This document shows, piece after piece, positions 16-61,979 of a stretch of 64,000 bases of DNA. The position numbers were made by a program, and so were the translations under genes. Numbering within the stretch: the stretch's first letter is position 1; every line of letters begins with the position of its first letter. A model generated the notes under the pieces. It saw only the letters and a program-made list of their open reading frames with translations, did no database searches and had not been told where the DNA came from. The DNA is from an uncultured Pelagibacteraceae bacterium. GTDB lineage: Bacteria > Pseudomonadota > Alphaproteobacteria > Pelagibacterales > Pelagibacteraceae. Where the stretch lies: positions 16,163 through 80,162 of the forward strand of contig CACKWM010000004.1 of NCBI GenBank assembly GCA_902603905.1, written 5' to 3'.

Positions 16-1662
16 ATGACCAAAAAAAAGAATACTTGGAAAAATCCTTTGGCTATTTGGGGTGCAAAAGGTGGAAATTATGAAGTTCCAACACCACCAT
101 ATAAAGATCCGCATGATATATGGAAAAAAACAAATTCATATAAAGTTCCAATAAAAAAAATAGGTAGATTTCACTATGAATATAAGTCTTCAAATCACGG
201 AAACAAAATTTGGAATCGTCTAAGATGGTGGCCAACAAGAAGAACTATTTTGTGGACTAAAGGAGTTTATAATAGAAAAAGTTTAAAAGCTGAAAAAATA
301 AGAAAAGACAAAAGACCAATTTTTTGGTTTTTTGGATTGCTTTTTTTAGCTATTGCTCCATTTATTTTACCAGAAGGAAACAAAACTGCTCTTTTAACAG
401 CAGGAGGAATTTTTGGAATTTATGCATCTATTAACTTGTGTTGGACACTTATAATTGGAACTGCAGGCATATTTTCCTTAGCAACATATGCTATTGTAGG
501 AATTTCAGCATTTTTTACATGCTGGCTATCAATAAACTTGGGTCTTCCTTGGTGGACCTTGCCTTTAATAGGTATGTTTATAGGCTTAGGGTTTGGAATA
601 ATTATTGCGCTACCAGCTTTAAGATTAGATGGCTTTTACTATGGATTGCTTACCCTGGGGCTAAATGAACTTTGTAGAGTTTTTATAACGACATCAAAAG
701 CTTTCGGATCAGCATCTGGTGGTTTGTTCGGAGCAGACACTTTTATAAACCAAGACTGGACACCAATGACACAAACCTATGCAAGTTATTATAGTGCATT
801 TCTATTATTAATTGCTGCATTGTTTTTATTTAGATTTGTTGATGGAAAGCGTATAGGAAGAATTTTAAAATTAGCGCCAGAAAAAAAAGAGTCATTTGCT
901 GAAGCTTCTGGGGTAGATTATAAAAGAGCTAGAGTTACAGTGTTTTTAATTTCCTCAGTTGCATTAGGATTCATTGGAGGTTTTTATGCAGCTTATTACA
1001 GAGGCGTAGCTTTTAATCTTTTTGATTTTCATACTGTAGTAATGGGGCTAGCCATGATCACAATTGGTGGAATTGGCAGATCTGAAGGCGCAGTTGTAGG
1101 CACACTAATAATTGTAATTTTAGATAGAGTGTTAATAGAATTAGGTCCAATGAGATATATAATTATTGGGGTTTTAATGATGTTTACCATTTTATTTCTT
1201 CGAAATGGGTTATTTGGAATAAGAAAACAATTTAAGGAATGGAGAAACAAAAAAAAGAATGAAGTAAGATCAACCAGGGTAGAAAGAGGAGGAGAAATGT
1301 TACCAGAGCAATCAACTGAGATGGATAATAAAGATGAAGTGTATAGAAAGAGATATGATAAAATGCAAAGAGAGTTTTTAAAAACCCTAATTTGTAATGA
1401 AATTATTGAAGAACATAAAAATAAACCATTAGGCCAACATAGCGAAGCGCTGGAAAGAGTTTTGTATTATTTTAGAAGAGCAGCAATGAATGATAAGTAT
1501 GTTGTTAAATGCGAAGAGCCTTTTAAGAAATATAAAATTATGGCTTTATCAGGTGTTAGAGGTAGGTCACCACGACTTGTTGAGGACAAAGTTTATCCCT
1601 CAGTAACGGATGCTTACCATGGGTTATTTTTAAGAAGAGTGCAAGATTTAATGGAGGCATAA
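16..1662 (+). CDS. LivM-type ABC permease fused to a DMFase small-subunit (DmfA1-like) domain
   Basis: This 548-residue protein has three parts. Residues 1-100 are a hydrophilic, Trp/Lys-rich extension I do not recognise. Residues 103-410 form about nine membrane segments of a branched-chain amino acid/urea-type ABC permease (LivM family), ending in the usual basic GLFGIRKQ-like tail. Residues 428-548 match, along their whole length, the free 139-residue DmfA1-like protein at 61560-61979: shared positions include EH..KP.GQHSE.LE.VL...RR, KYV..C and GVRG, and the ending FL+RV.DL. The next gene is the matching large subunit, so the fusion partner fits its context. The permease should sit in the inner membrane with the enzyme domain in the cytoplasm. 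Other transporter subunits probably lie upstream of the window. The natural substrate is unknown; an N-substituted amide is inferred. Confidence 0.85.
   Translation: MTKKKNTWKNPLAIWGAKGGNYEVPTPPYKDPHDIWKKTNSYKVPIKKIGRFHYEYKSSNHGNKIWNRLRWWPTRRTILWTKGVYNRKSLKAEKIRKDKRPIFWFFGLLFLAIAPFILPEGNKTALLTAGGIFGIYASINLCWTLIIGTAGIFSLATYAIVGISAFFTCWLSINLGLPWWTLPLIGMFIGLGFGIIIALPALRLDGFYYGLLTLGLNELCRVFITTSKAFGSASGGLFGADTFINQDWTPMTQTYASYYSAFLLLIAALFLFRFVDGKRIGRILKLAPEKKESFAEASGVDYKRARVTVFLISSVALGFIGGFYAAYYRGVAFNLFDFHTVVMGLAMITIGGIGRSEGAVVGTLIIVILDRVLIELGPMRYIIIGVLMMFTILFLRNGLFGIRKQFKEWRNKKKNEVRSTRVERGGEMLPEQSTEMDNKDEVYRKRYDKMQREFLKTLICNEIIEEHKNKPLGQHSEALERVLYYFRRAAMNDKYVVKCEEPFKKYKIMALSGVRGRSPRLVEDKVYPSVTDAYHGLFLRRVQDLMEA
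1284..1299 (+). promoter_or_regulatory. Internal Shine-Dalgarno and in-frame ATG inside the permease-DmfA1 fusion
   Basis: AGGAGG at 1287-1292 lies four bases before an ATG at 1297-1299 that is in frame with the long reading frame. It falls exactly at the junction between permease tail and DmfA1-like domain. Starting there gives a free protein of 121 residues, close to the usual small-subunit length. Most genes here lack so good a ribosome site, so this one may be used, giving both fused and free subunit. Purine-rich codons for Arg-Gly-Gly-Glu could produce the match by chance. Confidence 0.5.
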
Positions 1663-1665
1663 AAA

Positions 1666-3987
1666 ATGGCAGAAATTAAAATATTTGGCTATACTGACAA
1701 GATATCTGTAAAACAAGGAGAAAAAATTAACTTTCACGTGTCAGCAGATGGAACAAAAACTGCTCAAGCACAACTGGTAAAATTAATTCATGGTGATGGA
1801 CATCCAGATGGGCCTGGATATTTAGATGAAAAAATTGATGATAAAATCAATGGAGAGTGGAGTGTTGAAAAACAATTCACGCAATTAGGTTCTTTCTTAA
1901 AAGTAAATGATCCAGAAAATAAATTAGCAATAGATGGTGATTTCACAATATTTGGATACATTTGTCCTTCAACGCCAAAAACTGGACATCACCAGTGGAT
2001 CTTTAGTCGTTGGAATAATAAAACAAACGAGGGGTATGGCATAGGAATTAATAAAGATGGATACTTTGAACTTGCAGTTGGAGATGGTAAAGAAGTTGAC
2101 TATTTGATTTCTGAACTGCCTATGATTAAAAAAGTTTGGTATTTTGTGGCAGCAACCTTTAACTACAAAACGGGCGATGCAACTTTATATCAAGAAGGTG
2201 TATTAACCAGATATAATTCATTACTTGGAAAAGTTGTACCCTATGATTACCGTTCACACACAAAAACAACTTTTAGATTTAAACAAAAAAATAATCCAAA
2301 AACTCCATTTATTGTTTCTGGAGCATATGATTTACATGAGTTAAGAGGTCATTTTATTTCAGGTACTTATGCAGGAAAGGTAGATAGACATGGTATTTGT
2401 AATAAAGTTTTATCTAAAGAAGATTTGGACAAAATTCGTGATGGAGAATTGCCAGAGAAAAATTCTATACTAGCGTATTGGGATACTACTGTAGGTTTTT
2501 CAGATAATGGAATAAATAATACTGTAATTGACATTGGGCCAAATAAATTAAACTCAGAAGGTCATAACCATCCAGTAAGAGCTATGACTGGATGGAACTG
2601 GAATGGAAAGAATGATAATTTTAGATTAGCCCCAAAAGAATATGGTGGAATTGATTTTCATCCTGATGCAATAACAGATGCAAAATGGAAAGTTACAAAC
2701 TCAATGACAATTCCTGAAGATTTAAAAAGTGGTGTTTATGCAATAAGATTAAGATCTGGCCCTGGTACTGGTTTAAGTGAGGAATATATTGTATTTTTTG
2801 TAAGACCTAAAAAACCAAAATCTAAAATTTGTTTTCTAGTTCCTACTGCTAGTTATTTAGCTTATGCAAATGAAAAATTAAGTTTTGAAGCAGTTATAAT
2901 TCAACCAATGACTGGGCAACCACCTACAATTACAGATATTGATATTGAGCAATATAAAAATCCTGAGTTTGGATTATCAACTTATGATAGCTACGCTGAT
3001 GGAGCTGGTGTTTGTTATTCGTCTTATAAAAGACCAATACTAAATATGAGACCGAAGTATAGAACTTCGGGAATGGGTATAACTTGGCAATTTCCTGCAG
3101 ATCTTTCTGTAATTGGGTGGTTAGAACATAATAATTATGAATATGATATAATTACTGACGAAGATCTACATAAAGAAGGTTTAAATTCTGTTAAACCTTA
3201 TAATTGCGTAATTACTGGTACTCATAATGAATATTATTCAGAAAAAATGCTTAACGCCTTAGAAGATTATGTAGCTAATGGTGGTAGAGTTTTTTCTACA
3301 GGAGCTAATGCTTATTATTGGGTTGTTGCATTTCCTGAAGAACAACCTTGGTGCATGGAAGTAAGAAAGTTAGAAGCTGGAATGAGAGCATGGGCTGCAA
3401 AACCTGGTGAGTATTATATGCAAACAACTGGAGAAAAAGGTGGATTATGGAGAACACGTGGACGTCCACCTCAAAAATTTGCAGGTGTGGGATTTATTGC
3501 AGAAGGTTTTGATACTTCTGAAAAATACAGAAAAATGCCTGATGCATGGCATAGAACAGTTTCATGGATCACAGAAGGTGTTGAAGGTGAAATTATTGGA
3601 GATCATGGATTGGCATATGGAGGTGCTGCTGGAGTGGAAATAGATAGATACGATCTTTCTTTGGGAACTCCTCCTCATACTAAAATCATTGCTTCTTCAG
3701 GGGGTCATAGTGATAATTACGTTCTTGTCACTGAAGAACTATTATATGCCTACGCTGGATTGGTGGGATCATTAGATTATAGAATAAGAGCTGACATGAC
3801 TTATTTTACATCTCCAAATAATGGTGCTGTATTTTCCACAGGATCTATTGCATTTGGACAGTCCCTACCTAGTAACAATTTTAATAATAGTTCATCAACA
3901 GTGATGAAAAATGTAATTAATGCATTTATGAAAGATGGAAAGTTGCCTGGAGGCTTGTGGACTTTAGAAGAAAAACAATGGAAGTAA
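1666..3987 (+). CDS. N,N-dimethylformamidase large-subunit-like amidohydrolase (DmfA2-like)
   Basis: The 773-residue product resembles the DMFase large subunit, which hydrolyses dimethylformamide to dimethylamine and formate with a mononuclear iron. An N-terminal beta-rich LamG-like region (about 80-260) precedes the catalytic region. From memory, the known enzyme uses Tyr399, Tyr440 and Glu521 as iron ligands with His519 nearby; here Tyr400 (in SYLAY), Tyr440 (in GLSTY) and His520-x-Glu522 (in GTHNE) fall at nearly the same numbers. The paralog at 59180-61537 keeps all of them. The gene starts four bases after the permease-DmfA1 fusion, so translation is probably coupled. The exact amide cannot be told from sequence, and formamide specificity should not be assumed. 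Confidence 0.85.
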   Translation: MAEIKIFGYTDKISVKQGEKINFHVSADGTKTAQAQLVKLIHGDGHPDGPGYLDEKIDDKINGEWSVEKQFTQLGSFLKVNDPENKLAIDGDFTIFGYICPSTPKTGHHQWIFSRWNNKTNEGYGIGINKDGYFELAVGDGKEVDYLISELPMIKKVWYFVAATFNYKTGDATLYQEGVLTRYNSLLGKVVPYDYRSHTKTTFRFKQKNNPKTPFIVSGAYDLHELRGHFISGTYAGKVDRHGICNKVLSKEDLDKIRDGELPEKNSILAYWDTTVGFSDNGINNTVIDIGPNKLNSEGHNHPVRAMTGWNWNGKNDNFRLAPKEYGGIDFHPDAITDAKWKVTNSMTIPEDLKSGVYAIRLRSGPGTGLSEEYIVFFVRPKKPKSKICFLVPTASYLAYANEKLSFEAVIIQPMTGQPPTITDIDIEQYKNPEFGLSTYDSYADGAGVCYSSYKRPILNMRPKYRTSGMGITWQFPADLSVIGWLEHNNYEYDIITDEDLHKEGLNSVKPYNCVITGTHNEYYSEKMLNALEDYVANGGRVFSTGANAYYWVVAFPEEQPWCMEVRKLEAGMRAWAAKPGEYYMQTTGEKGGLWRTRGRPPQKFAGVGFIAEGFDTSEKYRKMPDAWHRTVSWITEGVEGEIIGDHGLAYGGAAGVEIDRYDLSLGTPPHTKIIASSGGHSDNYVLVTEELLYAYAGLVGSLDYRIRADMTYFTSPNNGAVFSTGSIAFGQSLPSNNFNNSSSTVMKNVINAFMKDGKLPGGLWTLEEKQWK

Positions 3988-4269: not shown

Positions 4270-5595
4270 ATGTCAAAAAATTTATCTAAAATAGCAAAAA
4301 CAAAAAAAATTAAATATTTTTTAATTAGTTTCGTTGATTTGTTTGGTGTTCTGAGATCAAAGTTAGTTCCTGCGCGAGCGATTGGCGAAATGCAAGAAAA
4401 TGGCGCTGGATTTGCTGGATTTGCAACTTGGCTTGATATGACACCAGCAGATACTGACATGTTTGCTATCCCAGATCCTGACAGCTTAATTCAACTGCCA
4501 TGGAACAAAGAAGTGGGTTGGTTAGCATCGGATTTATGGATGGGTGGAAAACCTGTAAAAGCATCACCGCGTGTAATGCTTAAAGAACAGATAAAAAAAC
4601 TTAATACAAAAAATTTAACTATGAAATCTGGTGTTGAATGTGAATATTTTTTAATCACACAAGATGGGAAAAAAATTGCAGATGAAAGAGATACTCAATC
4701 AAAACCTTGTTATGATCAATCAGCTTTAATGCGAAGGTATGATTTAATTAAAGAAATTTGCGATAGTATGATTGAACTTGGATGGAACCCTTATCAAAAT
4801 GATCATGAAGATGCTAATGGGCAATTTGAAATGAATTGGGATTACAGCGATTGTTTAACAACGGCAGATCGACATGTTTTTTTTAAATTTATGGTAAAAT
4901 CATTAGCAGAGAAGCATGGTTTAAGAGCAACTTTCATGCCTAAACCTTTTCAAAACTTAACTGGCAATGGTTGTCATGCTCATATTTCTTTATGGGACGG
5001 CAAACAAAATAAATTTTTAGAAAGTGGGGAAAAACTTGGTTTAAGCAAAATAGCATATAATTTTTTAGGTGGAATAATGAAATTTGCACAACCATTAACT
5101 GCTTTCTTTAATCCTACAATAAATAGTTATAGAAGAATTAATGCACCGCCTACTAAATCAGGTGCTTCATGGTCTCCAAGTAGTATTTCTTACTCAGGAA
5201 ATAATAGAACCCACATGATAAGAGTCCCTGACCCAGGAAGATTTGAATTAAGATTAATGGATGGTGCAACTAATCCTTATTTGCTGCAAGCAGGAGTTGC
5301 CGCGGCAGGTATACATGGATTAATTAATAAAATAGATCCAGGTGAACCTTTGTCGTGCAACATGTATACGGAATACAAAAAATATCCTGATTTAAAAAAA
5401 TTGCCTGATTGTATTGAAGATTCTTTAGATGAACTTGATAATAGTAAAGAAATTAAAGAAGCTTTTGGAGAGAATGTAATAAACAGTTTTATAAAATTAA
5501 AAAAAATGGAAGTAGAAGAGTTTAATAAAGAAGAAAATTTTGATAAAAAAAAAGAAGTTACAAGCTGGGAAAAAGAAAACACTTTAGATTGTTAA
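4270..5595 (+). CDS. Glutamine-synthetase-family ligase, gamma-glutamylmethylamide synthetase / GlnT type
   Basis: The 441-residue product is a glutamine synthetase fold enzyme of the group annotated type III glutamate-ammonia ligase. N-terminal signatures such as IKYFLISFVDLFGVLRSK and GFAGFATWLDMTP are typical of GmaS and GlnT. The catalytic half has GNGCHAHISLW, SGASWSPSSISYSGNNR and the arginine-rich RVPDPGRFELRL. GmaS joins methylamine to glutamate with ATP, the first step of the N-methylglutamate pathway; GlnT uses ammonia. Placement next to DMFase genes, which can release methylated amines, favours the methylamine role, but sequence alone does not separate the two. No SD is evident. 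Confidence 0.75.
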   Translation: MSKNLSKIAKTKKIKYFLISFVDLFGVLRSKLVPARAIGEMQENGAGFAGFATWLDMTPADTDMFAIPDPDSLIQLPWNKEVGWLASDLWMGGKPVKASPRVMLKEQIKKLNTKNLTMKSGVECEYFLITQDGKKIADERDTQSKPCYDQSALMRRYDLIKEICDSMIELGWNPYQNDHEDANGQFEMNWDYSDCLTTADRHVFFKFMVKSLAEKHGLRATFMPKPFQNLTGNGCHAHISLWDGKQNKFLESGEKLGLSKIAYNFLGGIMKFAQPLTAFFNPTINSYRRINAPPTKSGASWSPSSISYSGNNRTHMIRVPDPGRFELRLMDGATNPYLLQAGVAAAGIHGLINKIDPGEPLSCNMYTEYKKYPDLKKLPDCIEDSLDELDNSKEIKEAFGENVINSFIKLKKMEVEEFNKEENFDKKKEVTSWEKENTLDC

Positions 5596-42359: not shown

Positions 42360-44075
42360 AACAAATCAAAAAATATTACTGGTGATATTTATGTGCAAGA
42401 TGTGCATAAATATTTTGGAGTAACTAAAGCTCTTAACGGAGTTAATTTTAGTGCAAATTTTGGTGAGATTCATGCCATTGTTGGTGGTAACGGTTGTGGA
42501 AAAAGTACGCTTGCAAAAGTAATGTCGGGTGTTTTGCCTATTGATAAAGGTAAAGTTTCTGTTTTGGGTCACGTGCCTACTTCACCAGTTATGGCAAGAG
42601 AGCTGGGTATAGCTACTGTTTTTCAAGAAGTTATGATAGCTGAAGAAGCTTCTGTTGTAGATAACTTATTTGTTGGTTCAGACAGCTTTTGGTACAAAAA
42701 TTTAACGCAAAGAGAAAAAGTAATAAAAGCACAAGAACTTATGGAAGATCTTGCGGGCGAATATATAGATCCATACACTCAAGTATTTAATTTATCATTA
42801 CCAATTAAAGCTTGGATCACTATTGGAAGAGCTTTTTTGCGTGAAAATACGAAAGTACTAATTCTTGATGAATCGTCTGCAGCTCTTGATTTTGATTCAA
42901 CCGAAAGATTGTTTAAAAAAATGAGAGAGTTAAGAGATAATGGTGTTGCAGTTTTTATTGTTACCCACAGAATTGCAGAACTAATACGTATAAGTGATAA
43001 AGCAACAGTTATGAGAGATGGTAAAGATGTTGGTGTTTTAGAAAAAAAAGATCTTAACGAAAAAAATTTATTAGGTTTGATGACAGGTAGAGTTGAAACT
43101 GGAGAAAAATCTACGTCTGTTGCCGTACAAACAAAAACGGATAAAGTGGTAATGAGAGCGGAAAATCTAGTTGTTTGGCCTGAAAGTACACCAGTTAACT
43201 TTGAAGTGCGTAGAGGTGAAATAGTTGGTGTTACAGGATTAGATGGCAACGGACAAGATGATTTTGTAAAAATTTTAGCAGGTGTGCAAGAATCTAATGG
43301 GGGCACTACTGAAGTCTTAGATATTAATAACAAATTCATAAAATATAATTCTTTAATGGATGCAAAAAAAAACGGAATTTCTTTTGTTTCAGGAGATAGG
43401 AAAAAAGAAGGAATACTTCCTAATTTAAGCATATATGAAAATTTAGTTGTTCCACTTTATCGAACAACAAGTAAAGCGGGATGGCTGGGATTTGTTAATT
43501 GGCTGGAGTTAAATGGCATATATGAATACGAAGTTGAAAGACTAAGTATTAAAACTGGACCAAGAGATAATCTTATAGGTTCGCTAAGTGGAGGCAATCA
43601 ACAGAAAGTTATGATAGCTAGATCTCTAGCAACACATCCTAAAATTCTTGTCTTGAATGATCCTGCTAGAGGCATTGATGTAAGCACCAAACGAGATCTA
43701 TACACTCATCTTAGAAAATTTGTAGAAGAAGGAAACACTGTTATTTTTTTATCTAGTGAGCTCGAAGAGTTTATCGGACTTTGTCCAAAAGTAATTGTAT
43801 TTAGACATGGAACAATATTTGATATTTTTGAAAATGAAAAAGTTAAAGCAGATACTTTACTCGAAGGAATGTTTGGTCAAACTGCAGGAATAGGATCAAC
43901 TAGTATTAGCAAATCAACCAGCACGGACGCTTCATTAAATAAAAAAAATATAAACACAAATATAATAAATTCAGCTAAAATAGATAAAAAGATCATAAAA
44001 GTTATAGATTTTGATAAAGAAAAAAAATCTAAAGAAAATAGTTCAAATAAAAAAATAAAAATAAAAACATTTTAA
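42306..44075 (+). CDS. Sugar-type ABC ATPase with two nucleotide-binding domains and a docking-like tail
   Basis: The 589-residue protein is RbsA/MglA-like. Domain 1 has Walker A GGNGCGKSTLAK and VLILDESSAALDF; domain 2 has the altered loop GLDGNGQDDFVK usual in this family, SLSGGNQQKVMIARSL and ILVLNDPARGIDV. The first 25 residues are an extra, hairpin-encoded extension. From about residue 525 a disordered Ser/Lys/Asn tail ends in KKIIKVIDFDKEK (561-573) and KIKIKTF. The same ending occurs in the next gene product and in PxpC (51552-52679), which suggests a shared binding partner. The stop overlaps the next start by one base. Confidence 0.88.
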   Translation: MSAEQNIKDNTSNKEVLSNKSKNITGDIYVQDVHKYFGVTKALNGVNFSANFGEIHAIVGGNGCGKSTLAKVMSGVLPIDKGKVSVLGHVPTSPVMARELGIATVFQEVMIAEEASVVDNLFVGSDSFWYKNLTQREKVIKAQELMEDLAGEYIDPYTQVFNLSLPIKAWITIGRAFLRENTKVLILDESSAALDFDSTERLFKKMRELRDNGVAVFIVTHRIAELIRISDKATVMRDGKDVGVLEKKDLNEKNLLGLMTGRVETGEKSTSVAVQTKTDKVVMRAENLVVWPESTPVNFEVRRGEIVGVTGLDGNGQDDFVKILAGVQESNGGTTEVLDINNKFIKYNSLMDAKKNGISFVSGDRKKEGILPNLSIYENLVVPLYRTTSKAGWLGFVNWLELNGIYEYEVERLSIKTGPRDNLIGSLSGGNQQKVMIARSLATHPKILVLNDPARGIDVSTKRDLYTHLRKFVEEGNTVIFLSSELEEFIGLCPKVIVFRHGTIFDIFENEKVKADTLLEGMFGQTAGIGSTSISKSTSTDASLNKKNINTNIINSAKIDKKIIKVIDFDKEKKSKENSSNKKIKIKTF

Positions 44076-44596
44076 TGAAAAAAGAAACTAAAAATAATTA
44101 TTACACAGATGAAGATTTAATTAACTTTAAAAAATTAAATAATTTTAAGGAATTTAAATCTGATAAATTAAACAATAATCAAACAACTAAGTATCCGGTT
44201 AAATATTCAATGTCTGACAATAATAATTTTAAGAAAATTATGAATATTGAAAATAGTGAAATATTTTCATTTAAAGAGGATAATAAATCAAAAGAGAATT
44301 CTTATTACAATTCATTAGATTTTCAAAAATTTAATAAGCTTAAACAATTCACAAATTTTGAAAATAGTAAAGATTCGAAAACTAAAAAAGAAGATTCAAA
44401 AAGTGTCACAAGCTATACTTCAGATGATGTGAACAAATTTGATAAAATTATTAAAACAAAAAACCAAAGTATTAATAACAAAGCTGCAAATAATAAAAAA
44501 ATAAAAATAATTGATTTTGGTAAGTTAAAAGAAAAAGAAAAAAATTTTAAAAATAAATTAGGTATTGAAAAAATTAAGGTTGTTTATTTTGATTAA
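44075..44596 (+). CDS. Disordered repeat protein, candidate scaffold (173 residues)
   Basis: I know no family for this Lys/Asn/Ser-rich, low-complexity protein. It has four copies of a 12-residue motif at residues 10-21, 44-55, 78-89 and 114-125 (Y10, Y44, Y78, Y114; spacing 34, 34, 36). The pattern is Y-[STN]-x-x-D-x-x-x-F-x-K-[IL]. S/T-x-x-D would cap a short amphipathic helix. Residues 141-150 (KKIKIIDFGK) and the end IKVVYFD match the tails of the transporter ATPase and PxpC. Two more copies of the 12-residue motif are in the biotin-carboxylase/PxpB fusion. Its place between the ATPase and permease genes, with one-base and three-base junctions, indicates co-expression. Confidence 0.7.
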   Translation: MKKETKNNYYTDEDLINFKKLNNFKEFKSDKLNNNQTTKYPVKYSMSDNNNFKKIMNIENSEIFSFKEDNKSKENSYYNSLDFQKFNKLKQFTNFENSKDSKTKKEDSKSVTSYTSDDVNKFDKIIKTKNQSINNKAANNKKIKIIDFGKLKEKEKNFKNKLGIEKIKVVYFD

Positions 44597-44599
44597 TTT

Positions 44600-46921
44600 A
44601 TGGAAATAGTAGATAAAATTACAAAAACTTATAGATCAAGTGTAGATACTTCTTCAAACAAGTATCTTATGGTGCCAATTTTTATTTTCTTTTCATTATT
44701 AATTTTTGCAATGATAAGAAGTCCAATTATAATCTCTCAATCAGGAATTGGTAGTGCAATAATTCTTAGCGCACCACTCATATTAACAACTTATGCTTTA
44801 ACATTTATTGTTATGGCTGGTCGAGGTGGTGTTGATTTATCTATTGGTCCTTTTATGGGTTTTATAAATGTAAGTAGTATTCAATTATATGCTCATGGAT
44901 ATTTACAAACACCTATTGGTTGGTTTATTTACGCCATTGTAATAGGTTTAATTTGGCAATTTTTTTATGCTTTGATTGTAGTATTTGTTAGAGTTTCTCC
45001 AATTATAGTAGCGTTAGCAGGATACCTAGCATTCACCGGGATTAATCTTGTTATTCTATCTCGTCCAGGAGGTATTGCACCAGATTGGCTAATACCTTGG
45101 GGAGAAGGTTTTACAATATTTAACGAAATATTCCTTCTAATGATTTTAGCAACAATTTTATTTTATATCATCACTCATACAGCTTTTTGGGGTCATTTAA
45201 AATTAATGGGCGCAGACGAGCGTGCTGCTTTTACCAGTGGCGTTAAAATTAACTGGGTAAGAATAGTTGCACACTTAATAGCTGGAGTTTTTGCTGCACT
45301 ATCTGCAATATGTTTTACTGCGTTGGTTGGTTCTGGAGATCCTATACAAGGAACTAAGTATACGCTTTTAGGAGTTACCGCACTAGTTCTTGGTGGAGCG
45401 AGTCTTATAGGTGGTCGAGGTGGTGCATTTGGAGCAATTTTAGGTGCTGGAAACCTTTATTTAATTAATTATATTTTGGTTACTTTTAGATTTGAAAGAT
45501 TACAAAGTTTTGTCTCTGATTTATCTTATGGAGCCGTATTAGTTATTGCTTTACTTGTAAGCCTTATTCTTCCTTATGTACAAAGAGTCACTAAAGGATT
45601 GTCTGTTATGGTTTTTTTCATTCTTATGTCTTTTGCCGGTACGTTTGTGATAATGCATCAAGTTTATGATCAGCCTATAGTGGTGGAATCTGAAATAAAA
45701 GAAGATACAGACGAAGCTTCTAAAGCTTATCAACGAGGTCAAAAAGTACGTAAATTAGATGCAACAGGAAACATTATAGTTGAAGAAGGCGAAGCAGGGA
45801 CTACTACTGGAACAGGAACAAAACAAGGTGGTTCTCTGGCTGGTCACTCGGTTGTTCGGTTGACAGAAACGCCAGGAACAATAATGCTTTATATTATTAT
45901 TGGAATTGCAGGTCTTGCTCTTCTTCTTTACCTACTTACTGTTCATAGGAGTCCTGCTACCACAACATTTGCCGTTGTTGTGGCTATTATAGTTGCGGGT
46001 CTAATATTTGATCCTGAAGATAAACAAAAAGATATATTAAAAGATACTGAAAAGATAAGCATACAATCAGGACAAACAAGTAGTATCGAAACTTCTTCTC
46101 CTGAATATTTTAGCCTTGAAAAGATTGATTATTTATCAAATTTATCTATTTCAGGAACAACGTATAGTATAATTTATATTGCTGGAGTTGTATTGCTTGC
46201 TTCTTTAATCGTTATAGCAATGTTGCCTCAATTTAATAATCGTACAAAATCTGCTGCCATGCTTTTTTTCTTGGCCGCTTTAACAATGATTGTTTTGAAA
46301 GGTGTGTCTTATAATAATTTAATAGAAAGTACTGATAAAAGCTTTTTTGGCATCCAAGGGTACGGTGTCATATTAGTAATTTTGTTACTTTTTGTCATTA
46401 CAGCTCCATTTGTTCACTCTAAAATAAAAAATCTTACAAATGTTTATATTTTTGGATTCGGTGTTTTGGCTATTCTTGCAACTTATTTTGTAGGAGGAAA
46501 TACTTTTATTTCTGATGATCCATCTTTGTATCAACCTAAAATTATAAGTGAGTTGAATATTGGAGACATTTCACAAATTAAATATCAAGAACCAAAAAGA
46601 TTTTTTTATGAAATTATAAGGAGTGGTTACTCACAAGTAGCTTTTAGTATACTTGCTGTTTTTTTATTACAGTATTTTTTGTTTTTAACAATGAGCCATA
46701 AGGTAAGCTATAAAAGATTTGCTCCTTATATGTACATAGTAATATTTGCAAGTTTGCTGTGGGCTGCAATGTTTTATTCTGTAGGATATTCTTTTTATAA
46801 AATTATAGCAGTCTTTATAATTGGTATACCCATTACACCTCTAGTATGGCAATTTATGAGAATCTACAGAGAAAAAATTGCTCGTGATAGCCAATTAAGT
46901 CAATGGGAGGAGGTTAAATAG
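44600..46921 (+). CDS. Sugar-type ABC permease with a very long membrane extension (773 residues)
   Basis: Residues 1-345 are an RbsC-like permease: AGRGGVDLSIGPFMGF, VALAGYLAFTGINLVIL, LGGASLIGGRGGAFGAILGAG. Typical members end here at 320-350. This one continues for about 430 residues with eight or more further hydrophobic segments separated by polar loops, including a Gly/Thr-rich loop (GEAGTTTGTGTKQGG, near residue 395-410) and two acidic loops. I recognise no domain in the extension. It may be an added membrane module, a receptor for the neighbouring enzyme, or a second duplicated core now diverged. Confidence 0.82.
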   Translation: MEIVDKITKTYRSSVDTSSNKYLMVPIFIFFSLLIFAMIRSPIIISQSGIGSAIILSAPLILTTYALTFIVMAGRGGVDLSIGPFMGFINVSSIQLYAHGYLQTPIGWFIYAIVIGLIWQFFYALIVVFVRVSPIIVALAGYLAFTGINLVILSRPGGIAPDWLIPWGEGFTIFNEIFLLMILATILFYIITHTAFWGHLKLMGADERAAFTSGVKINWVRIVAHLIAGVFAALSAICFTALVGSGDPIQGTKYTLLGVTALVLGGASLIGGRGGAFGAILGAGNLYLINYILVTFRFERLQSFVSDLSYGAVLVIALLVSLILPYVQRVTKGLSVMVFFILMSFAGTFVIMHQVYDQPIVVESEIKEDTDEASKAYQRGQKVRKLDATGNIIVEEGEAGTTTGTGTKQGGSLAGHSVVRLTETPGTIMLYIIIGIAGLALLLYLLTVHRSPATTTFAVVVAIIVAGLIFDPEDKQKDILKDTEKISIQSGQTSSIETSSPEYFSLEKIDYLSNLSISGTTYSIIYIAGVVLLASLIVIAMLPQFNNRTKSAAMLFFLAALTMIVLKGVSYNNLIESTDKSFFGIQGYGVILVILLLFVITAPFVHSKIKNLTNVYIFGFGVLAILATYFVGGNTFISDDPSLYQPKIISELNIGDISQIKYQEPKRFFYEIIRSGYSQVAFSILAVFLLQYFLFLTMSHKVSYKRFAPYMYIVIFASLLWAAMFYSVGYSFYKIIAVFIIGIPITPLVWQFMRIYREKIARDSQLSQWEEVK

Positions 46922-49089: not shown

Positions 49090-51546
49090 ATGAAGAAAAT
49101 TCTAATAGCAAATCGTGGAGAAATTGCCTGTAGAATTATTAATAGTTGCAAAAAATTAAAGTTTCATTCAATTGCTGTCTATTCGGATGTAGATAAGAAT
49201 AGTAAACACGTTAAAAAAGCTAATGAATCTATTCATATAGGTGGTTCAAAAGCACAAGACAGTTATTTGTCTTCAGATAAAATAATTGAAGCAGCTAAAA
49301 AAGTAAAAGCTGACGCTATTCATCCAGGTTATGGTTTTCTTGCAGAAAATGATAAATTTGCACAAAAAGTAATTGATGCAGGGATCGTGTGGATAGGACC
49401 TAAACCGAATACTATTGTGTCGATGGGTAACAAAGATATAGCTAGAGATTTAGCATTAAAAAGTGGTCTGCCAATTTGTCCGGGCTTAAACAATAAAGAT
49501 TTAGAAAAAAGTGATTTAGAAAAAAAATGTAATGATATTGGATTTCCTATTTTAGTAAAAGCAAGTGCTGGTGGTGGTGGAATAGGAATGCAAATTGTAA
49601 ATAATTACAACGAATTAGTTAAATCTGTAGAAAAAACAAAAAATTTAGCAAAGAAGGCATTTGGAAATAGTGATGTTTTTTTAGAAAAATTTATAAAAAA
49701 TGCAAGACACATAGAAATACAAATATTCGGTTTTGGAGAAAAAAAAGCTGTCCATTTTTATGAAAGAGATTGTTCGATACAAAGAAGATTTCAAAAAATT
49801 ATAGAAGAAAGCCCAGCACCAAAAGTAGGACCCGACATTATAAATAAAATGTCAGAAAGTGCTGTAAATTTTGCTAGCAATCAAAAATACGAAGGTGCAG
49901 GAACAATAGAGTTTATTTATGATGTAGATGAAAAAAAGTTTTACTTTTTAGAAATGAATACACGAATTCAAGTAGAACATCCAGTAACAGAATCTATAAC
50001 AAATTCTGACCTAGTTGAGATGCAAATTAAATTTGCACTAGGAATTGATACTAATTTAACAGAACAAAATAAAATTAATAGAACTGGACATGCTATTGAA
50101 TGTAGATTGTATGCTGAGGATCCCTCAAAGAATTTTCTACCTTCACCTGGAAAAATTTCAAAACTTAAAATTCCAAATACTAATTTGGCAAATATTAGAT
50201 TAGATATTGGAGTAGATGAAGGGGATGAAATATCTTTTTACTATGACCCAATGATAGCAAAAATTATTGCTAAAGGTTCTACTAGGGTTGAAAGCATTAA
50301 AAATATGTTACAATATTTAAAAGAATTTGAAATTGAAGGAATTAATACTAATAAATCTTTTTTAATATCTGTGCTTCAAAATAAAAATTTTGAAGAGGCA
50401 AATTTTAATACCAAATTTATTGAAAATAATTTGACCTTATTCATAAAGAAAAAAGGAGATATTTTACCAACTAAAAAACAAGATAAAACCAAAATTAAAC
50501 AGGAATATAGTGATAAAGATGTAAAAGCTTTTGAAAAAATTATTGCTAAAACACCAAAAAGCAAAAATGGTCAAGGCTATACTGAAAAGGATTTAAAAGC
50601 CTTTGATAATATTTTTTCTTCAAGACATAAAAAAACAGAAATAGAGGTAAAAACAGAAGTTAAAAATATTCAAGGTAAAATTTACGATGCTCCTAAATTT
50701 TTACCTGCTGGTGATAAATATATGCTTATTGAATTTGGTAATGTGATGAATTTAGAATTAAATTTTACTGCTCAAAACTTAGCTAAAGCAATTAAAGATC
50801 ATAAAGTTAGAGGGGTTTATGAAACCTCTCCCTGTTTCGCATCAATGTTAGTTCATTATGAACCAGAAGAAATAAAATTTAATGATTTAAAAAACGAATT
50901 AAAATCTCTTGTAAATTCTTTGGGTCCTTCCGATGATATAGAAATTAATAGTAGAATTTTTTCTTTTCCTACAGTTTATCTTGATAAATGGACAAAAGAA
51001 TGCATTGAAGATTACTCAAGCAAAATTGCTAAAAAAAAACCTGATCCTGAACTTATAACGGAGTTAAATAATCTTGAAAACACAGAACAATTTGTAAGAG
51101 TGCATTCTGGAACTGAATATTGGGTTTCTGCTATAGGTTTTTGGCCTGGTCTTCCGTTTATGATGGCTCTTGACCCAAGGTGTAAACTTACAGTTCCAAA
51201 ATATAACCCACCACGAACATGGACGCCAAAAGGAACAGTCGGAATGGGCGGTGCTTCCACATCAATATATCCAGATCGATTACCAGGTGGATACCAGATT
51301 TTTGGTATTATTCCCGTTCCAATTTGGGATACAAAAAAAAGTTTTCCAGTATTTGAAAATAACATTTGTCTTTTTCAACCAGGAGATAGAGTAAAATTTA
51401 TTCCCACAACATATGAAGAATTTGATCATGTTACTAAAAAAATAGAAGATGGTACTTATGATTATAATATTGTTGAGTATCAGAAATTTTCAGTAAAAAA
51501 TTATAAAAAATGGTTAACTACAATTGATCAAACAAAAAGGTTTTAA
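49090..51546 (+). CDS. Biotin carboxylase fused to PxpB (KipI/AHS1) through a motif-bearing linker
   Basis: Residues 1-445 are a biotin carboxylase: ILIANRGEIACRIINSCK, HPGYGFLAEND, ATP-grasp KASAGGGGIGMQ and EMNTRIQVEHPVTE. Residues 540-818 are the KipI/AHS1 (PxpB) domain with IGFWPGLPFMMAL and GGASTSIYP. The Lys-rich linker between (about 455-535) holds two motifs, Y473-I484 (YSDKDVKAFEKI) and Y497-I508 (YTEKDLKAFDNI), of the same type as the four copies in the 173-residue protein at 44075-44596. There is no biotinyl domain; that is a separate 72-residue protein. The arrangement resembles a urea carboxylase split into parts. Confidence 0.9.
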   Translation: MKKILIANRGEIACRIINSCKKLKFHSIAVYSDVDKNSKHVKKANESIHIGGSKAQDSYLSSDKIIEAAKKVKADAIHPGYGFLAENDKFAQKVIDAGIVWIGPKPNTIVSMGNKDIARDLALKSGLPICPGLNNKDLEKSDLEKKCNDIGFPILVKASAGGGGIGMQIVNNYNELVKSVEKTKNLAKKAFGNSDVFLEKFIKNARHIEIQIFGFGEKKAVHFYERDCSIQRRFQKIIEESPAPKVGPDIINKMSESAVNFASNQKYEGAGTIEFIYDVDEKKFYFLEMNTRIQVEHPVTESITNSDLVEMQIKFALGIDTNLTEQNKINRTGHAIECRLYAEDPSKNFLPSPGKISKLKIPNTNLANIRLDIGVDEGDEISFYYDPMIAKIIAKGSTRVESIKNMLQYLKEFEIEGINTNKSFLISVLQNKNFEEANFNTKFIENNLTLFIKKKGDILPTKKQDKTKIKQEYSDKDVKAFEKIIAKTPKSKNGQGYTEKDLKAFDNIFSSRHKKTEIEVKTEVKNIQGKIYDAPKFLPAGDKYMLIEFGNVMNLELNFTAQNLAKAIKDHKVRGVYETSPCFASMLVHYEPEEIKFNDLKNELKSLVNSLGPSDDIEINSRIFSFPTVYLDKWTKECIEDYSSKIAKKKPDPELITELNNLENTEQFVRVHSGTEYWVSAIGFWPGLPFMMALDPRCKLTVPKYNPPRTWTPKGTVGMGGASTSIYPDRLPGGYQIFGIIPVPIWDTKKSFPVFENNICLFQPGDRVKFIPTTYEEFDHVTKKIEDGTYDYNIVEYQKFSVKNYKKWLTTIDQTKRF

Positions 51547-51551
51547 TATCT

Positions 51552-52679
51552 ATGGTAAAAGTAATTAAAAAAGGTCTAGAAACATCTGTTCAAGATTATC
51601 CTGGAAGAATTGGAACTCTAAATCTGGGCTTTCCACCTTCAGGTCCAATGGATAGTTGGTCTTTTAGACTTGCTAATGTTTTAGTTGAAAATGAACCTGG
51701 TGCTGCAGCTTTAGAATGTCAGTTTATGGGTCCTACTCTTAAATTTAATAGTGATAGAATAATTGCTATTACAGGTGCTGACATGTCTCCCAAAATAGAT
51801 GGCAGTCCAGTTCCTTTATGGGAAAGCTTGGAAGTTAAAAAAGATCAAACTTTAGAAATGACTTTTGCAACAGTGGGTGCAAGATCTTATATTGCTTTTT
51901 CAGGAGGAATAAATACCACTCCATGGTTAGGTTCAAGATCAACTTTTCATAAAGCAGGAGTTGGTGGTATAGAGGGAAAAGCAATTCAAGATGGTCAAAT
52001 TATTCCTTTAAACAAATCTAAATCAGTGGCTGGAAGAAAAGTTAAAAAAAACTCTATACCAGTTATGTCCACAAACAAAAAATGGTCTGTAGAAGTTGTT
52101 AAAGGTCCTAATGATGATTGGGTTGATGAAAAAGGACATAAAATGTTTTTAAATTCTAATTGGAAGCTTCAATCTAAAAGTGACAGAACTGGTTATAGGC
52201 TAGAAGGACCCAAGTGGTCTTTTACAGAAAAAGCAACTCACAAAGGTTTAGAACATGGAACATTTCCTTCAAACATTATTGATCAAGGATATCCAGTGGG
52301 TGCAATAAACTTGGCTGGACAAACCCCAATTATACTAGTCAATGATGGTCCAAGCATGGGTGGATTTATTGTTCCTTACACAGTTCCATCAGCTTCTTTT
52401 TGGAAACTAGGACAAGCAAAACCGGGTGATAGTTTTAATTTTGTAGAAATATCAGTTGAAAAAGCTCAAACATTAAGAACTGAACAAACTATTATCTGCA
52501 GTGAAGCAAGTCTAATGTCATCTAAAAAAGAAAGTGGTTTATTACATGAAGCAGCAGCCAAAAAAATAGAACATATTAAAATAGTAGATTTTGATAAAGA
52601 AAAAATGAACGAAAAAATAAGAAATAAAATGATGGAAAAAAGAGGAATGAAAAATATAAAAGTTCGCTTTTTTAATTAA
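51552..52679 (+). CDS. pxpC: PxpC (KipA/AHS2) subunit with docking-like C-terminal tail
   Basis: Residues 1-330 are a KipA/AHS2 protein: TSVQDYPGRIGTLNLGFPPS, GPMDSWSFRLANVLV, AITGADMSPKIDG and the end PIILVNDGPSMGGFIVPYTVPSA. It pairs with PxpB to form the ATP-dependent amidolyase or carboxyltransferase core. The last 40 residues are an added Lys-rich tail with KKIEHIKIVDFDKEK (337-351) and the end NIKVRFFN, the same motif as in the ABC ATPase and the 173-residue protein. At DNA level 21 bases in the motif (52585-52605) are identical to the ATPase gene. Confidence 0.9.
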   Translation: MVKVIKKGLETSVQDYPGRIGTLNLGFPPSGPMDSWSFRLANVLVENEPGAAALECQFMGPTLKFNSDRIIAITGADMSPKIDGSPVPLWESLEVKKDQTLEMTFATVGARSYIAFSGGINTTPWLGSRSTFHKAGVGGIEGKAIQDGQIIPLNKSKSVAGRKVKKNSIPVMSTNKKWSVEVVKGPNDDWVDEKGHKMFLNSNWKLQSKSDRTGYRLEGPKWSFTEKATHKGLEHGTFPSNIIDQGYPVGAINLAGQTPIILVNDGPSMGGFIVPYTVPSASFWKLGQAKPGDSFNFVEISVEKAQTLRTEQTIICSEASLMSSKKESGLLHEAAAKKIEHIKIVDFDKEKMNEKIRNKMMEKRGMKNIKVRFFN

Positions 52680-58811: not shown

Positions 58812-59180
58812 TTAGGTGCAACGCCTTGGTGCTGATTCACCTCGCTCTTTTTTAATTCTTTCTGCTTCTTTTTGTGCTGCTTCAATTGATGTAAAAACTT
58901 TATCTTCATACAAAATAAATGGCTTAGCTCTATCAGCATTAAGCTGGGCCACACACCATTCTTTACCAGGCTTAGTGCACATTACCATGTAAGCTCCCGG
59001 TATAGGTCCATATTTTCTATTATTTAGAGTAAAAAGACTTTTAGCTAGTTCATTTAGTTTATCTTCATCTAAATTTCCTAAAGCATTTTTTTCTAATTCA
59101 TTAAAAGGTGTAACATTATCAGATCCTAATATGCTTTTACCGCCTGTTCCTTCTGGTCTTGTAAATTGAGGTTTATTCAT
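58812..59180 (-). CDS. Hypothetical protein with a DmfA1-like second half (122 residues)
   Basis: Residues 1-65 are polar and unassigned. From the Cys in YMVMCTKPGKEW to EAAQKEAERIKK the protein can be aligned to the DmfA1-like protein at 61560-61979 with one single-residue gap: shared Cys, a Trp/Tyr seven positions later, Arg, Pro, Glu, Phe, Ser and EA. This suggests a distant third copy of the small-subunit fold, but the match is weak and by eye. It overlaps the large-subunit stop and precedes the symporter by 16 bases. Confidence 0.55.
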   Translation of the reverse strand: MNKPQFTRPEGTGGKSILGSDNVTPFNELEKNALGNLDEDKLNELAKSLFTLNNRKYGPIPGAYMVMCTKPGKEWCVAQLNADRAKPFILYEDKVFTSIEAAQKEAERIKKERGESAPRRCT

Positions 59181-61537
59181 TAAGGTAAAGGCCCTTCCTT
59201 TAAAAATCCGTTTATTGCATTTTCAAGTATTTTAGAAACATTATTATTGTAATTATTATAAGACAAACTTCCGCAAAAAGATAAAGAACCAGGAGCAAAC
59301 AACGCTCCATCATTTGGAGTTTTATAATAAATCATATCAGCTCTAACCATTGGGTTTTCCGTTCCTCCTCCATAAAAACCTCTTACGGTAAAATGAATTT
59401 CTTCATTAACTTGCATCATTAAATTTGTGTGATTTTCAGATCTGGCTAAAAGATATGCATTAGGCGGTGTTCCAAATTCCAAGTCATATCTATCAAGTTC
59501 TAATCCTGCAGCTCCTCCTCCAACTAAACCAAAATCTCCAATTACCTCGTCTTCTCCAACACCATCAAATATCCAAGAGCATTCAGGTCTTTTACTGTCA
59601 TCGCACCTTTTATAATAGGAACTAACATCAAAACCATAAGCTGTAAAAGTTAGACCACAAACTTTAGATGGAATTCTTCCTCTTGCTCTCCACATTCCTC
59701 CATATTTTCCATCAAAGGCATTATTATATTCTCCAGGATTAGCTGTCCATGCTCTAGTGCCAGCTTCTCCTTTTCTAACTTCAATAATATTTGGATTATC
59801 TGGGTGGTATTCACTTATCCAATAAAAACCATCAGATCCTAAATAAATCCATCTTCCACCATTTAATTGATATTGCTCATAGGCAGCTAACATTTTTTCT
59901 GAACTGTATTCAGGGTGTGAGCCAGTTAAGACACACTTATAACGATTTAATAAATCTACCCCTTCCAAATGTAAATCTTCATCAGTTACTACATCAAAAT
60001 CAAAATTTTTTTCTTCTAACCAATCAGTTAAGTGCAAGTCTGCATTTAATTGCCATAAGGAAGGAGACAACCAATGTCTATATTTTGGTCTCATGTTTAG
60101 TATTGGTCTTAATCTTGATGAGATTGCAACTCCGCTACCATCTGAATGTTTAGAATAAGTTGATAATCCATATTCTCTGTGTTCATTTAGATATAAATCT
60201 GACGCAGACATGACAGGGACTTTTCCTGCCAATAATTGGGCAACTACAGAATTTGTTCCTAAATTATCATTTGAATAAGCCAAGTAACTATTAGTTGGAA
60301 GTACAAAACAAAGTTTAGAAGTTGCTTTTCCTTTTGGTGGTTTAATTACAAACGGAATAAAGTCTTCAGTCTCTGCAGACTCTTCTCCATTAATTCTTAA
60401 TCTTGCCGCATAGACTCCACTTCGAATAATATCTGGAACTTTAAATGTAAAATCGACATCCCATCTAGCATCATCTATATCATCATCGTGAAAATGTATT
60501 GCTCCATATTCTTCAGGTTTATGATGAAAAACCATTTCATCTGCAGTCCAATTGTATCCTGTCATAGCTCTACAAGGTAAATTTATAATAAAACCATTTA
60601 AATGATTTGAAGTTGTGTCAATAATAAATGTTGATGCCATATTTTTGGTAATATTTGCATGAAAATCCCAGGCCCCAATTACTTCTGATCTTAACTCTGA
60701 GGTACAACCACTAAATCCTCTTGCAAGAGATTCTATGTCAGATTTTGATAAGGCTTTTTTACTTAATCTTGGTCTATCAATCTTGCCATTGTAGGTTAAA
60801 TTTTGTTCGGGTAATTCTATTGGGTCTATTGCTTCTTTATAATGAGCTCCATGGATATGCCGTCCAGAACGATCCTTTAAAGTGCTTGCTGCCATTAAAA
60901 ATGGTGCGTCATTTGCTCTAGGTTTTAAATTATTTGTAGCTTCAACAAATGCTGTTGTTTCATCCGCAGGATGAAGTAAAGACAATCCTAAACCACCATT
61001 TGTTGGTGTTACACAAGGTTCTTGATAAAGTTTTAATTTTCCTGAATTAGCATCATAAGTTGCGGCCACTAGATACCAAACTTTTCGCATTAACTTTTTT
61101 TCGCTTGAAAGTTTTGTTAACTGACCACTGCCATCACCTATCATTACTGATAAGCATGCATTTTCATCTATAAAAAGTCCATAACCACTTTTTGCTTGAT
61201 CATTCCATTTAGTCAAGATTCCTTGTTGACCTTTATCTGGTGTTGTGGGAAAAATATATGCCTGAAGAGTAAAACTTTCTGTATTTAATCTATCATCTTG
61301 AGGTATTATAATATAGGAACCACCATGTATTCTTTGGTTTCTTCCTTGAAGAGTTTTATTGCACTCTGCTCCAATTTCTTCATCTTTATAGCCTGGTCCT
61401 TCAGGATTTGTATCTCCGTGAATTAGTCTAACAATTTGAACATCATAATTTTCATTTTTTTCTGCGTTTACATAAAATTTAATTTCATCGCCAGGGAAAG
61501 CCTGATATTTATCGCTGTAGCCCGTAATTCTAAGCAT
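59180..61537 (-). CDS. N,N-dimethylformamidase large-subunit-like amidohydrolase, second copy
   Basis: The 785-residue protein is the paralog of the large subunit at 1666-3987. It has a LamG-like N-terminal half and the presumed iron ligands Tyr421 (SYLAY), Tyr461 (GLSTY) and His541-x-Glu543 (GSHPE), at the same spacing as in the first copy. It also shares RPILNMRPKYR, TDEDLH.EG and GG..RARGR.P..+.G..F. It is 22 bases downstream of its own small subunit. The sequences differ enough that the two enzymes may take different amides. Confidence 0.85.
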   Translation of the reverse strand: MLRITGYSDKYQAFPGDEIKFYVNAEKNENYDVQIVRLIHGDTNPEGPGYKDEEIGAECNKTLQGRNQRIHGGSYIIIPQDDRLNTESFTLQAYIFPTTPDKGQQGILTKWNDQAKSGYGLFIDENACLSVMIGDGSGQLTKLSSEKKLMRKVWYLVAATYDANSGKLKLYQEPCVTPTNGGLGLSLLHPADETTAFVEATNNLKPRANDAPFLMAASTLKDRSGRHIHGAHYKEAIDPIELPEQNLTYNGKIDRPRLSKKALSKSDIESLARGFSGCTSELRSEVIGAWDFHANITKNMASTFIIDTTSNHLNGFIINLPCRAMTGYNWTADEMVFHHKPEEYGAIHFHDDDIDDARWDVDFTFKVPDIIRSGVYAARLRINGEESAETEDFIPFVIKPPKGKATSKLCFVLPTNSYLAYSNDNLGTNSVVAQLLAGKVPVMSASDLYLNEHREYGLSTYSKHSDGSGVAISSRLRPILNMRPKYRHWLSPSLWQLNADLHLTDWLEEKNFDFDVVTDEDLHLEGVDLLNRYKCVLTGSHPEYSSEKMLAAYEQYQLNGGRWIYLGSDGFYWISEYHPDNPNIIEVRKGEAGTRAWTANPGEYNNAFDGKYGGMWRARGRIPSKVCGLTFTAYGFDVSSYYKRCDDSKRPECSWIFDGVGEDEVIGDFGLVGGGAAGLELDRYDLEFGTPPNAYLLARSENHTNLMMQVNEEIHFTVRGFYGGGTENPMVRADMIYYKTPNDGALFAPGSLSFCGSLSYNNYNNNVSKILENAINGFLKEGPLP

Positions 61538-61559: not shown

Positions 61560-61979
61560 TCATTCTGAATATCTTTCTAGAAGATCCACTACTCTTTTTA
61601 AAAAAATAGCATGCTCAACTGCCTCTTCTGAGGAAAAAGATTCTTCTAAAATTTTAACTGGCTCACCTCTAACTCCTGTTACTATGCCTATTCTATAATC
61701 TTCAAAATCTTTTTTACATACTGTTACATATTTCTTTATATGCATTGGCTGTCTTCTTAGTTTATCTAAAACAATTTGAAGTTCCTTGCTATGCTCAACC
61801 ATTGGTTGGCCTTTGTGTGGTTGAGCTGCCTTACCGACTGGGCACGCTCTATGCTCTTCAATTAATTTATTTCTCATTTTTTCATCTTTTAATAGAGGTA
61901 AAACATATTTTCTGGTTATGAAGTCATCAGTGCTTGTATGACCCCGATCTAATTGAACTCCAGTTTTATCTTTTGTCAT
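61560..61979 (-). CDS. N,N-dimethylformamidase small-subunit-like protein (DmfA1-like)
   Basis: The 139-residue protein is the free form of the domain fused to the permease at the left edge. Shared features are IEEH..CPVGKAAQPH, HSKELQIVLDKLRRQPM, KKYVTVCKKDFEDYRIGIVTGVRGEP and HAIFLKRVVDLLE. In the known enzyme the small subunit packs against the large subunit and stabilises it. It lies immediately upstream of the large-subunit gene, which supports the assignment. Confidence 0.82.
   Translation of the reverse strand: MTKDKTGVQLDRGHTSTDDFITRKYVLPLLKDEKMRNKLIEEHRACPVGKAAQPHKGQPMVEHSKELQIVLDKLRRQPMHIKKYVTVCKKDFEDYRIGIVTGVRGEPVKILEESFSSEEAVEHAIFLKRVVDLLERYSE

Follow-up and report, generated by a model that had tools for sequence, protein, structure and literature searches.

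Dimethylformamidases (DMFases) of the kind characterized in Paracoccus are built from a small alpha subunit, DmfA1, and a large catalytic beta subunit, DmfA2 (PDB 6LVB-6LVE; PMC7686228). The iron-ligand and catalytic residues have been assigned to the large subunit, which is inactive by itself, and the alpha subunit contributes to forming the active-site entrance (PMC7686228). In Paracoccus, alpha is encoded by a stand-alone gene (dmfA1), without an ABC importer. Importers of the LivHMGF or UrtABCDE type (HAAT importers) are encoded by operons that typically specify a substrate-binding protein (SBP), two ATPases and two permeases of the BPD_transp_2 type. In the SAR11 DNA described here, the two kinds of system are joined in one gene: an importer permease whose C-terminal tail is a DMFase alpha subunit, followed directly by the gene for the beta subunit. 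We propose, with a probability of roughly 55%, that the hydrolase is docked at the importer through this tail and that internal initiation within the same gene also supplies soluble alpha, a reading that was developed from sequence comparisons.

The window, meaning the whole 64,000-nucleotide stretch that was analysed, derives from an incomplete genome (853 kb, 61% complete), and its closest relatives among the contigs searched are single-cell genomes and MAGs of Pelagibacteraceae (SAR11). The features on which the argument depends are the following.

16..1662, forward strand: LivM::DmfA1 fusion gene, 548 aa in an uninterrupted frame
412..1188, forward strand: BPD_transp_2 permease domain of the fusion, residues 133-391 (Pfam, E 1.8e-23)
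1282..1299, forward strand: linker E-R-G-G-E-M, a candidate internal start, with AGGAGG at 1287-1292 and an in-frame ATG at 1297-1299
1297..1662, forward strand: candidate free DmfA1 frame, 121 aa, matching stand-alone DmfA1 in size and register
1342..1650, forward strand: DmfA1 (DMFase alpha) domain of the fusion, residues 443-545 (6lvb_B, E 6.5e-8)
1666..3987, forward strand: DmfA2 (DMFase beta, the catalytic large subunit), 773 aa (PF20254, E 3.5e-91; 6lvb_A, E 1.5e-182)
4270..5595, forward strand: type III glutamine synthetase homolog after dmfA2 (TIGR03105, 613 bits, above the cut-off)
59180..61537, reverse strand: DmfA2 partner of the free DmfA1 (PF20254, E 1.7e-91)
61560..61979, reverse strand: free DmfA1 of a second, unfused DMFase-like pair, a comparison gene outside the fusion operon

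The ATG of the fusion gene overlaps the stop codon of livH, which lies mostly upstream of the window, and genes for an SBP, LivG, LivF and LivH are found just upstream of the window edge. A first-pass annotation had described a LivM-type permease that runs without a stop into a DmfA1-like domain, and both domains are indeed matched within the single 548-aa frame. The DmfA1-like part occupies the last ~110 residues; over its final 125 aa the protein matches 6lvb_B, the DMFase small subunit of known structure (E 6.5e-8), and its final 140 aa show the expected resemblance to the free small subunit elsewhere in the window (37% identity, E 2e-13). The next gene was likewise correctly recognized as the matching large subunit, given its matches to DMFA2_C and 6lvb_A. 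Like other HAAT-type systems, the operon combines an SBP, two ATPases (LivG and LivF) and two permeases of the BPD_transp_2 type, LivH and the fusion. Unlike them, its LivM carries a basic N-terminal extension of ~100 residues before the permease domain, in which alignment shows a WPTRR motif to be kept, and it ends in an enzyme subunit. The fusion permease scores 63 bits against the NCBIfam LivM model (cut-off 366) and 44 bits against the UrtC model (cut-off 296), far under both thresholds, so that it should not be called LivM or UrtC proper.

The side of the membrane on which the tail lies matters for any docking model. Counts of hydrophobic segments in the fusion gave 8-9, a parity that is ambiguous for the side of the C-terminus, and AlphaFold models of the fusion reached a pLDDT of 44 alone and 36 with ten SAR11 sequences. 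LivM proteins end on the inside, and from this family knowledge and the strongly basic tail, the C-terminus of the fusion is taken as cytoplasmic.

The adjoining large subunit appears fully equipped for catalysis. Across 44 large subunits, 42 of them from fusion operons, the iron ligands Y399, Y440 and E521 and the catalytic H519 are identical in every sequence, the one in the window included. The locus thereby shares with the Paracoccus enzyme both the adjacency of its subunit homologs and these four residues, and the combination of an alpha-subunit homolog with a beta subunit bearing a two-Tyr, one-Glu iron site and the His places it in the DMFase family. The alpha2beta2 assembly of this family is built from separate chains; here alpha is fused, and a separate alpha is predicted from a candidate start inside the gene. 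Pocket position F693 is a Tyr in most fusion-linked large subunits; specificity may therefore differ, and DMF should not be assumed to be the substrate. The first-pass annotation had interpreted the gene as a transporter joined to a subunit of a catalytic complex, which would hold the enzyme at the channel mouth. Its domain calls, the fusion and the adjoining large subunit stand, with the qualification that the small subunit is itself non-catalytic, the iron site being in the large one. The interpretation also needs amending at the joint between the domains, which resembles a usable ribosome-binding site with a start codon, so that a free small subunit may be made too.

At this joint, the aligned fusions have in common the linker R-x-E-(K/R)-GGE-(V)M-(L)PE(E/Q)-(A/S)TE, and its DNA reads in frame as a Shine-Dalgarno (SD) sequence followed by a start codon, placed at the domain boundary (SAR11 form: GAAAGAGGAGGAGAAATG). 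In genome G397 the linker, GAGAAAGGAGGTGAAGTCATG, includes the whole of AAAGGAGGTGA, which is complementary to the usual 16S tail; CCTCC is retained in the 16S genes of SAR11 relatives. The linker Met lies ~39 residues before a conserved EEH, like the start codons of the stand-alone DmfA1 proteins of Rhodococcus (L024, 121 aa) and Caballeronia (L025, 119 aa). Within the window, the ATG at 1297 has the strongest SD among the 195 internal in-frame ATGs scanned, and this SD outdoes those of 64 of the 66 gene starts examined.

A less elaborate explanation is that the gene makes the fusion only, that all hydrolase is importer-bound, and that EKGGE(V)M is merely a conserved linker peptide. We regard this as unlikely, although some observations fit it well. 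The linker protein sequence is conserved even where the Met is missing (GGEALPEE, GGELLPEE), and when linker codons were redrawn from each gene's own codon usage, the SD strength of the SAR11 linkers equalled the expectation (p about 0.5-0.7). The invariance of the SAR11 linker DNA was accordingly rejected as proof of internal initiation, since a conserved peptide and codon bias predict the same DNA. Against a mere linker, GC-rich linkers of the VM type carry SDs above synonymous expectation in 7/7 cases (p 0.012-0.21), and the linker Met is in register with the starts of free DmfA1 proteins. Linkers of the M type gave a mixed result in the same codon test, and those of the Ala and Leu types, without Met, had SDs below expectation (8/8).

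A further argument against the fusion-only explanation comes from the operons themselves, in that a start codon is kept in every fusion that is its operon's sole source of alpha. For this comparison, 45 fusion loci were used (L141, the cut end of the L143 gene, was left out); in L013 the sequence after the fusion is shorter than 1 kb, and at a few other loci dmfA2 is only partly included. An additional free dmfA1 is found in nine operons, between the fusion and dmfA2 in five and after the first dmfA2 in four. All nine of these fusions have SD-poor linkers with the Gly-Gly codons GGC-GG(C/G), and seven lack an ATG or GTG in the linker. By comparison, a linker start codon is retained in all 34 fusions without a detected free operon dmfA1 (ATG or GTG in 32, and TTG behind a good SD in two) and GGC-GG(C/G) occurs in none of them, a count of 34 in which contigs ending inside dmfA2 (e.g. 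L062 and L013) could have a later dmfA1 copy. The SDs of several Agrobacterium-type linkers are only moderate, although these loci have no free dmfA1. The free dmfA1 copies have at least two separate origins inside the fused clade, and their branches tend to be longer. The codon pattern follows the expected direction at both of the well-supported independent switches in the tree, but with only these two (two to three overall), and having been noticed after the fact, the association between start codons and free genes is too thinly sampled for significance and is best called suggestive. Fused alpha domains remain conserved even beside a free alpha, and this persistence argues that tethering matters in itself. 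We would give slightly less than even odds to the specific arrangement in which one gene would encode a permease with an essential enzyme-subunit tail and, embedded in it, a ribosome-binding site for the soluble subunit, with a separate copy present in lineages where this start has weakened or disappeared.

Some ABC importers have cytoplasmic domains with a regulatory role, and the DmfA1 tail could in principle have turned into a sensor or gate of the permease that is no longer a hydrolase subunit. In favour of such a role, the fused copy is dispensable as an enzyme part where an operon has a free alpha. We nevertheless consider it improbable, because the fused domain is the only operon alpha in 34 operons whose beta active site is complete, and the published beta without alpha is inactive (PMC7686228).

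The fusion is not confined to the window. By tblastn, the same architecture was found on plasmids of Ensifer adhaerens, Aminobacter MDW-2, Rhizobium and Agrobacterium (54-60% identity), where the gene, if annotated, is named simply branched-chain amino acid permease, and it is also present in 24 further alphaproteobacterial genomes; many of the carriers are relatives that live in soil or in association with plants. These occurrences rule out an oddity of SAR11 and answer the check proposed with the first-pass annotation, a search for the same fusion in homologous loci. Counting SAR11, nine family-level groups have it, at low frequency among the genomes searched: 10/250 genomes of one family, 14/298 of an order, 1/397 of the SAR11 family and singly elsewhere, with two to four copies in several genomes. 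The order SBP-LivG-LivF-LivH-LivM::DmfA1-DmfA2 is constant wherever the contig is long enough. The permease of the window is 45-64% identical to other fused LivMs and at most 31% identical to unfused LivMs from six genomes; the fused LivMs form a separate group, no unfused member of which was found in those six genomes, and in a tree of the permeases the SAR11 fusions group together as a single clade, whose sister is an Ensifer-type clade. A survey of the class showed most DmfA1 homologs to be free proteins. The fusion is so a stable and old architecture, rare within any one group and probably of single origin, and its retention in nine family-level groups, with the gene order unchanged, shows that it is selected. 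A stand-alone dmfA1-dmfA2 pair in genome G683 (L063) was considered as an unfused ancestor and rejected, as no permease gene adjoins it.

Some fusion operons contain two large-subunit genes (L026:13730-18473, and also L138, L143, L145 and L159), which suggests two hydrolases sharing one importer. A stand-alone archaeal DmfA1 on a Halalkalicoccus plasmid (L023:8800-9342) is annotated as 'inner-membrane translocator', a label probably carried over from the fusion.

The joint itself, where a stop or frameshift between residues 410 and 428 would have pointed to two separate genes, is open in 9/10 further SAR11 contigs that carry the fusion, as well as in the distant fusions of other alphaproteobacteria. 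The tenth SAR11 contig, L019, has one extra T within a T-run before the linker (L019:500-560), either an assembly error or a real mutation, which breaks the permease frame and leaves the internal SD, the ATG and the downstream DmfA1 frame all intact. This intact start, and a linker that looks like a former gene start, are what one would expect if read-through were incidental, with two separate proteins, made through the internal start or by linker cleavage, being the functional forms and the fused form a by-product. Such an account is very improbable: neutral read-through should have been lost somewhere among the nine family-level groups in which the fusion persists, the six genomes searched yielded no unfused member of the permease group, and loci with a separate dmfA1 retain the fusion. 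Despite the frameshift near the joint in L019, an assembly artefact or missed stop codon can be dismissed, as the frame is conserved and open in independent assemblies of many species, complete plasmids and chromosomes included.

Under the docking model with internal initiation, the alpha domain on the cytoplasmic LivM tail would bind beta and keep the hydrolase against the importer's inner face, with the entrance to the active site, which alpha and beta form together, near the exit of the transport path. The LivM tail would place one alpha-beta unit at the importer, and beta may need alpha in excess of the number of permeases. Extra soluble alpha from the internal start would then give both importer-bound and free enzyme from one gene, and a separate operon dmfA1 may take over in cases of a weak or missing internal start. 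The probable substrate is a small amide, and the released amine or ammonium would feed the neighbouring glutamine- and glutamate-synthase-like enzymes. The glutamine synthetase homolog at 4270-5595 is a possible sink for it. Flanking the operon in this genome are an ammonium transporter gene, glutamate-synthase-like genes and two glutamine synthetase homologs, and on other SAR11 contigs dmfA2 is followed by glutamate-synthase-like genes. We take the flanking glutamate-synthase-like genes to resemble N-methylglutamate synthase subunits. Together, the neighbouring genes suggest nitrogen scavenging from an amide.

The unfused DmfA1/DmfA2 pair (59-62 kb) is part of a different, published locus, the flotillin-associated rhodopsin (FAR) cluster (PMC10308929), which is matched by positions 41086-63999 of the window with a transporter, carboxylases, the DMFase pair, a symporter and, at the window edge, a C-terminal fragment resembling flotillin. 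Four proteins of this stretch have short repeated peptides in common: an ABC ATPase at its C-terminus (43995-44075), a 173-aa protein without a Pfam match (44102-44593), a biotin carboxylase/carboxyltransferase fusion in its linker (50506-50625) and the partner carboxyltransferase at its C-terminus (52575-52676). The repeats are of the type Y-[ST]-x2-D-[VL]-x2-F-[DEN]-K and/or a K-I-x-[IV]-[IV]-D-F-[DG]-K tail, and might be docking or assembly tags. The same stretch encodes a 773-aa BPD_transp_2 permease (44600-46921), in which the Pfam match is limited to residues 54-317 and ~450 residues are unmatched, and the biotin carboxylase fused to a carboxyltransferase CT_C_D domain (49090-51546, 818 aa), adjoining a CT_A_B protein.

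If the docking model with internal initiation is right, uptake of the substrate would be tied physically to its hydrolysis, and translation would set the balance between bound and free enzyme. The locus would then represent a naturally selected ABC importer that recruits its catabolic enzyme via a shared essential subunit, and substrate channelling by an importer would become directly testable in culturable carriers such as Agrobacterium, Rhizobium, Aminobacter and Ensifer. The link to a hydrolase has been hidden by the database name 'branched-chain amino acid permease', and the fusion offers a handle on the amides scavenged by SAR11 and rhizobia.

Several known systems resemble the fusion in part. 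In SulP-carbonic anhydrase fusions, one polypeptide combines a transporter with an enzyme believed to process the transported substrate, while here the joined part is non-catalytic yet essential and would recruit a separately encoded catalytic subunit. The Paracoccus alpha is a free protein, whereas here alpha is the tail of a permease; the DMFase of the SAR11 FAR cluster (PMC10308929) also differs from the fusion in being unfused and in belonging to another DmfA1 clade. In the open-access literature, we found no paper joining dimethylformamidase with an ABC transporter permease and none describing the fusion. For the proposed internal start, the nearest counterpart is type I CRISPR Cas11, a small subunit experimentally shown to be made from an internal in-frame start inside cas8 (e.g. 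PMC11899642, PMC7684278). In both cases, a small subunit would come from in-frame translation within a larger gene of the same complex; here the start is predicted from sequence, and the full-length product, unlike Cas8, is a membrane transporter. The components of the locus thus belong to known families and transporter-enzyme fusions are a known kind, and we rate the gene with two products as the more novel reading.
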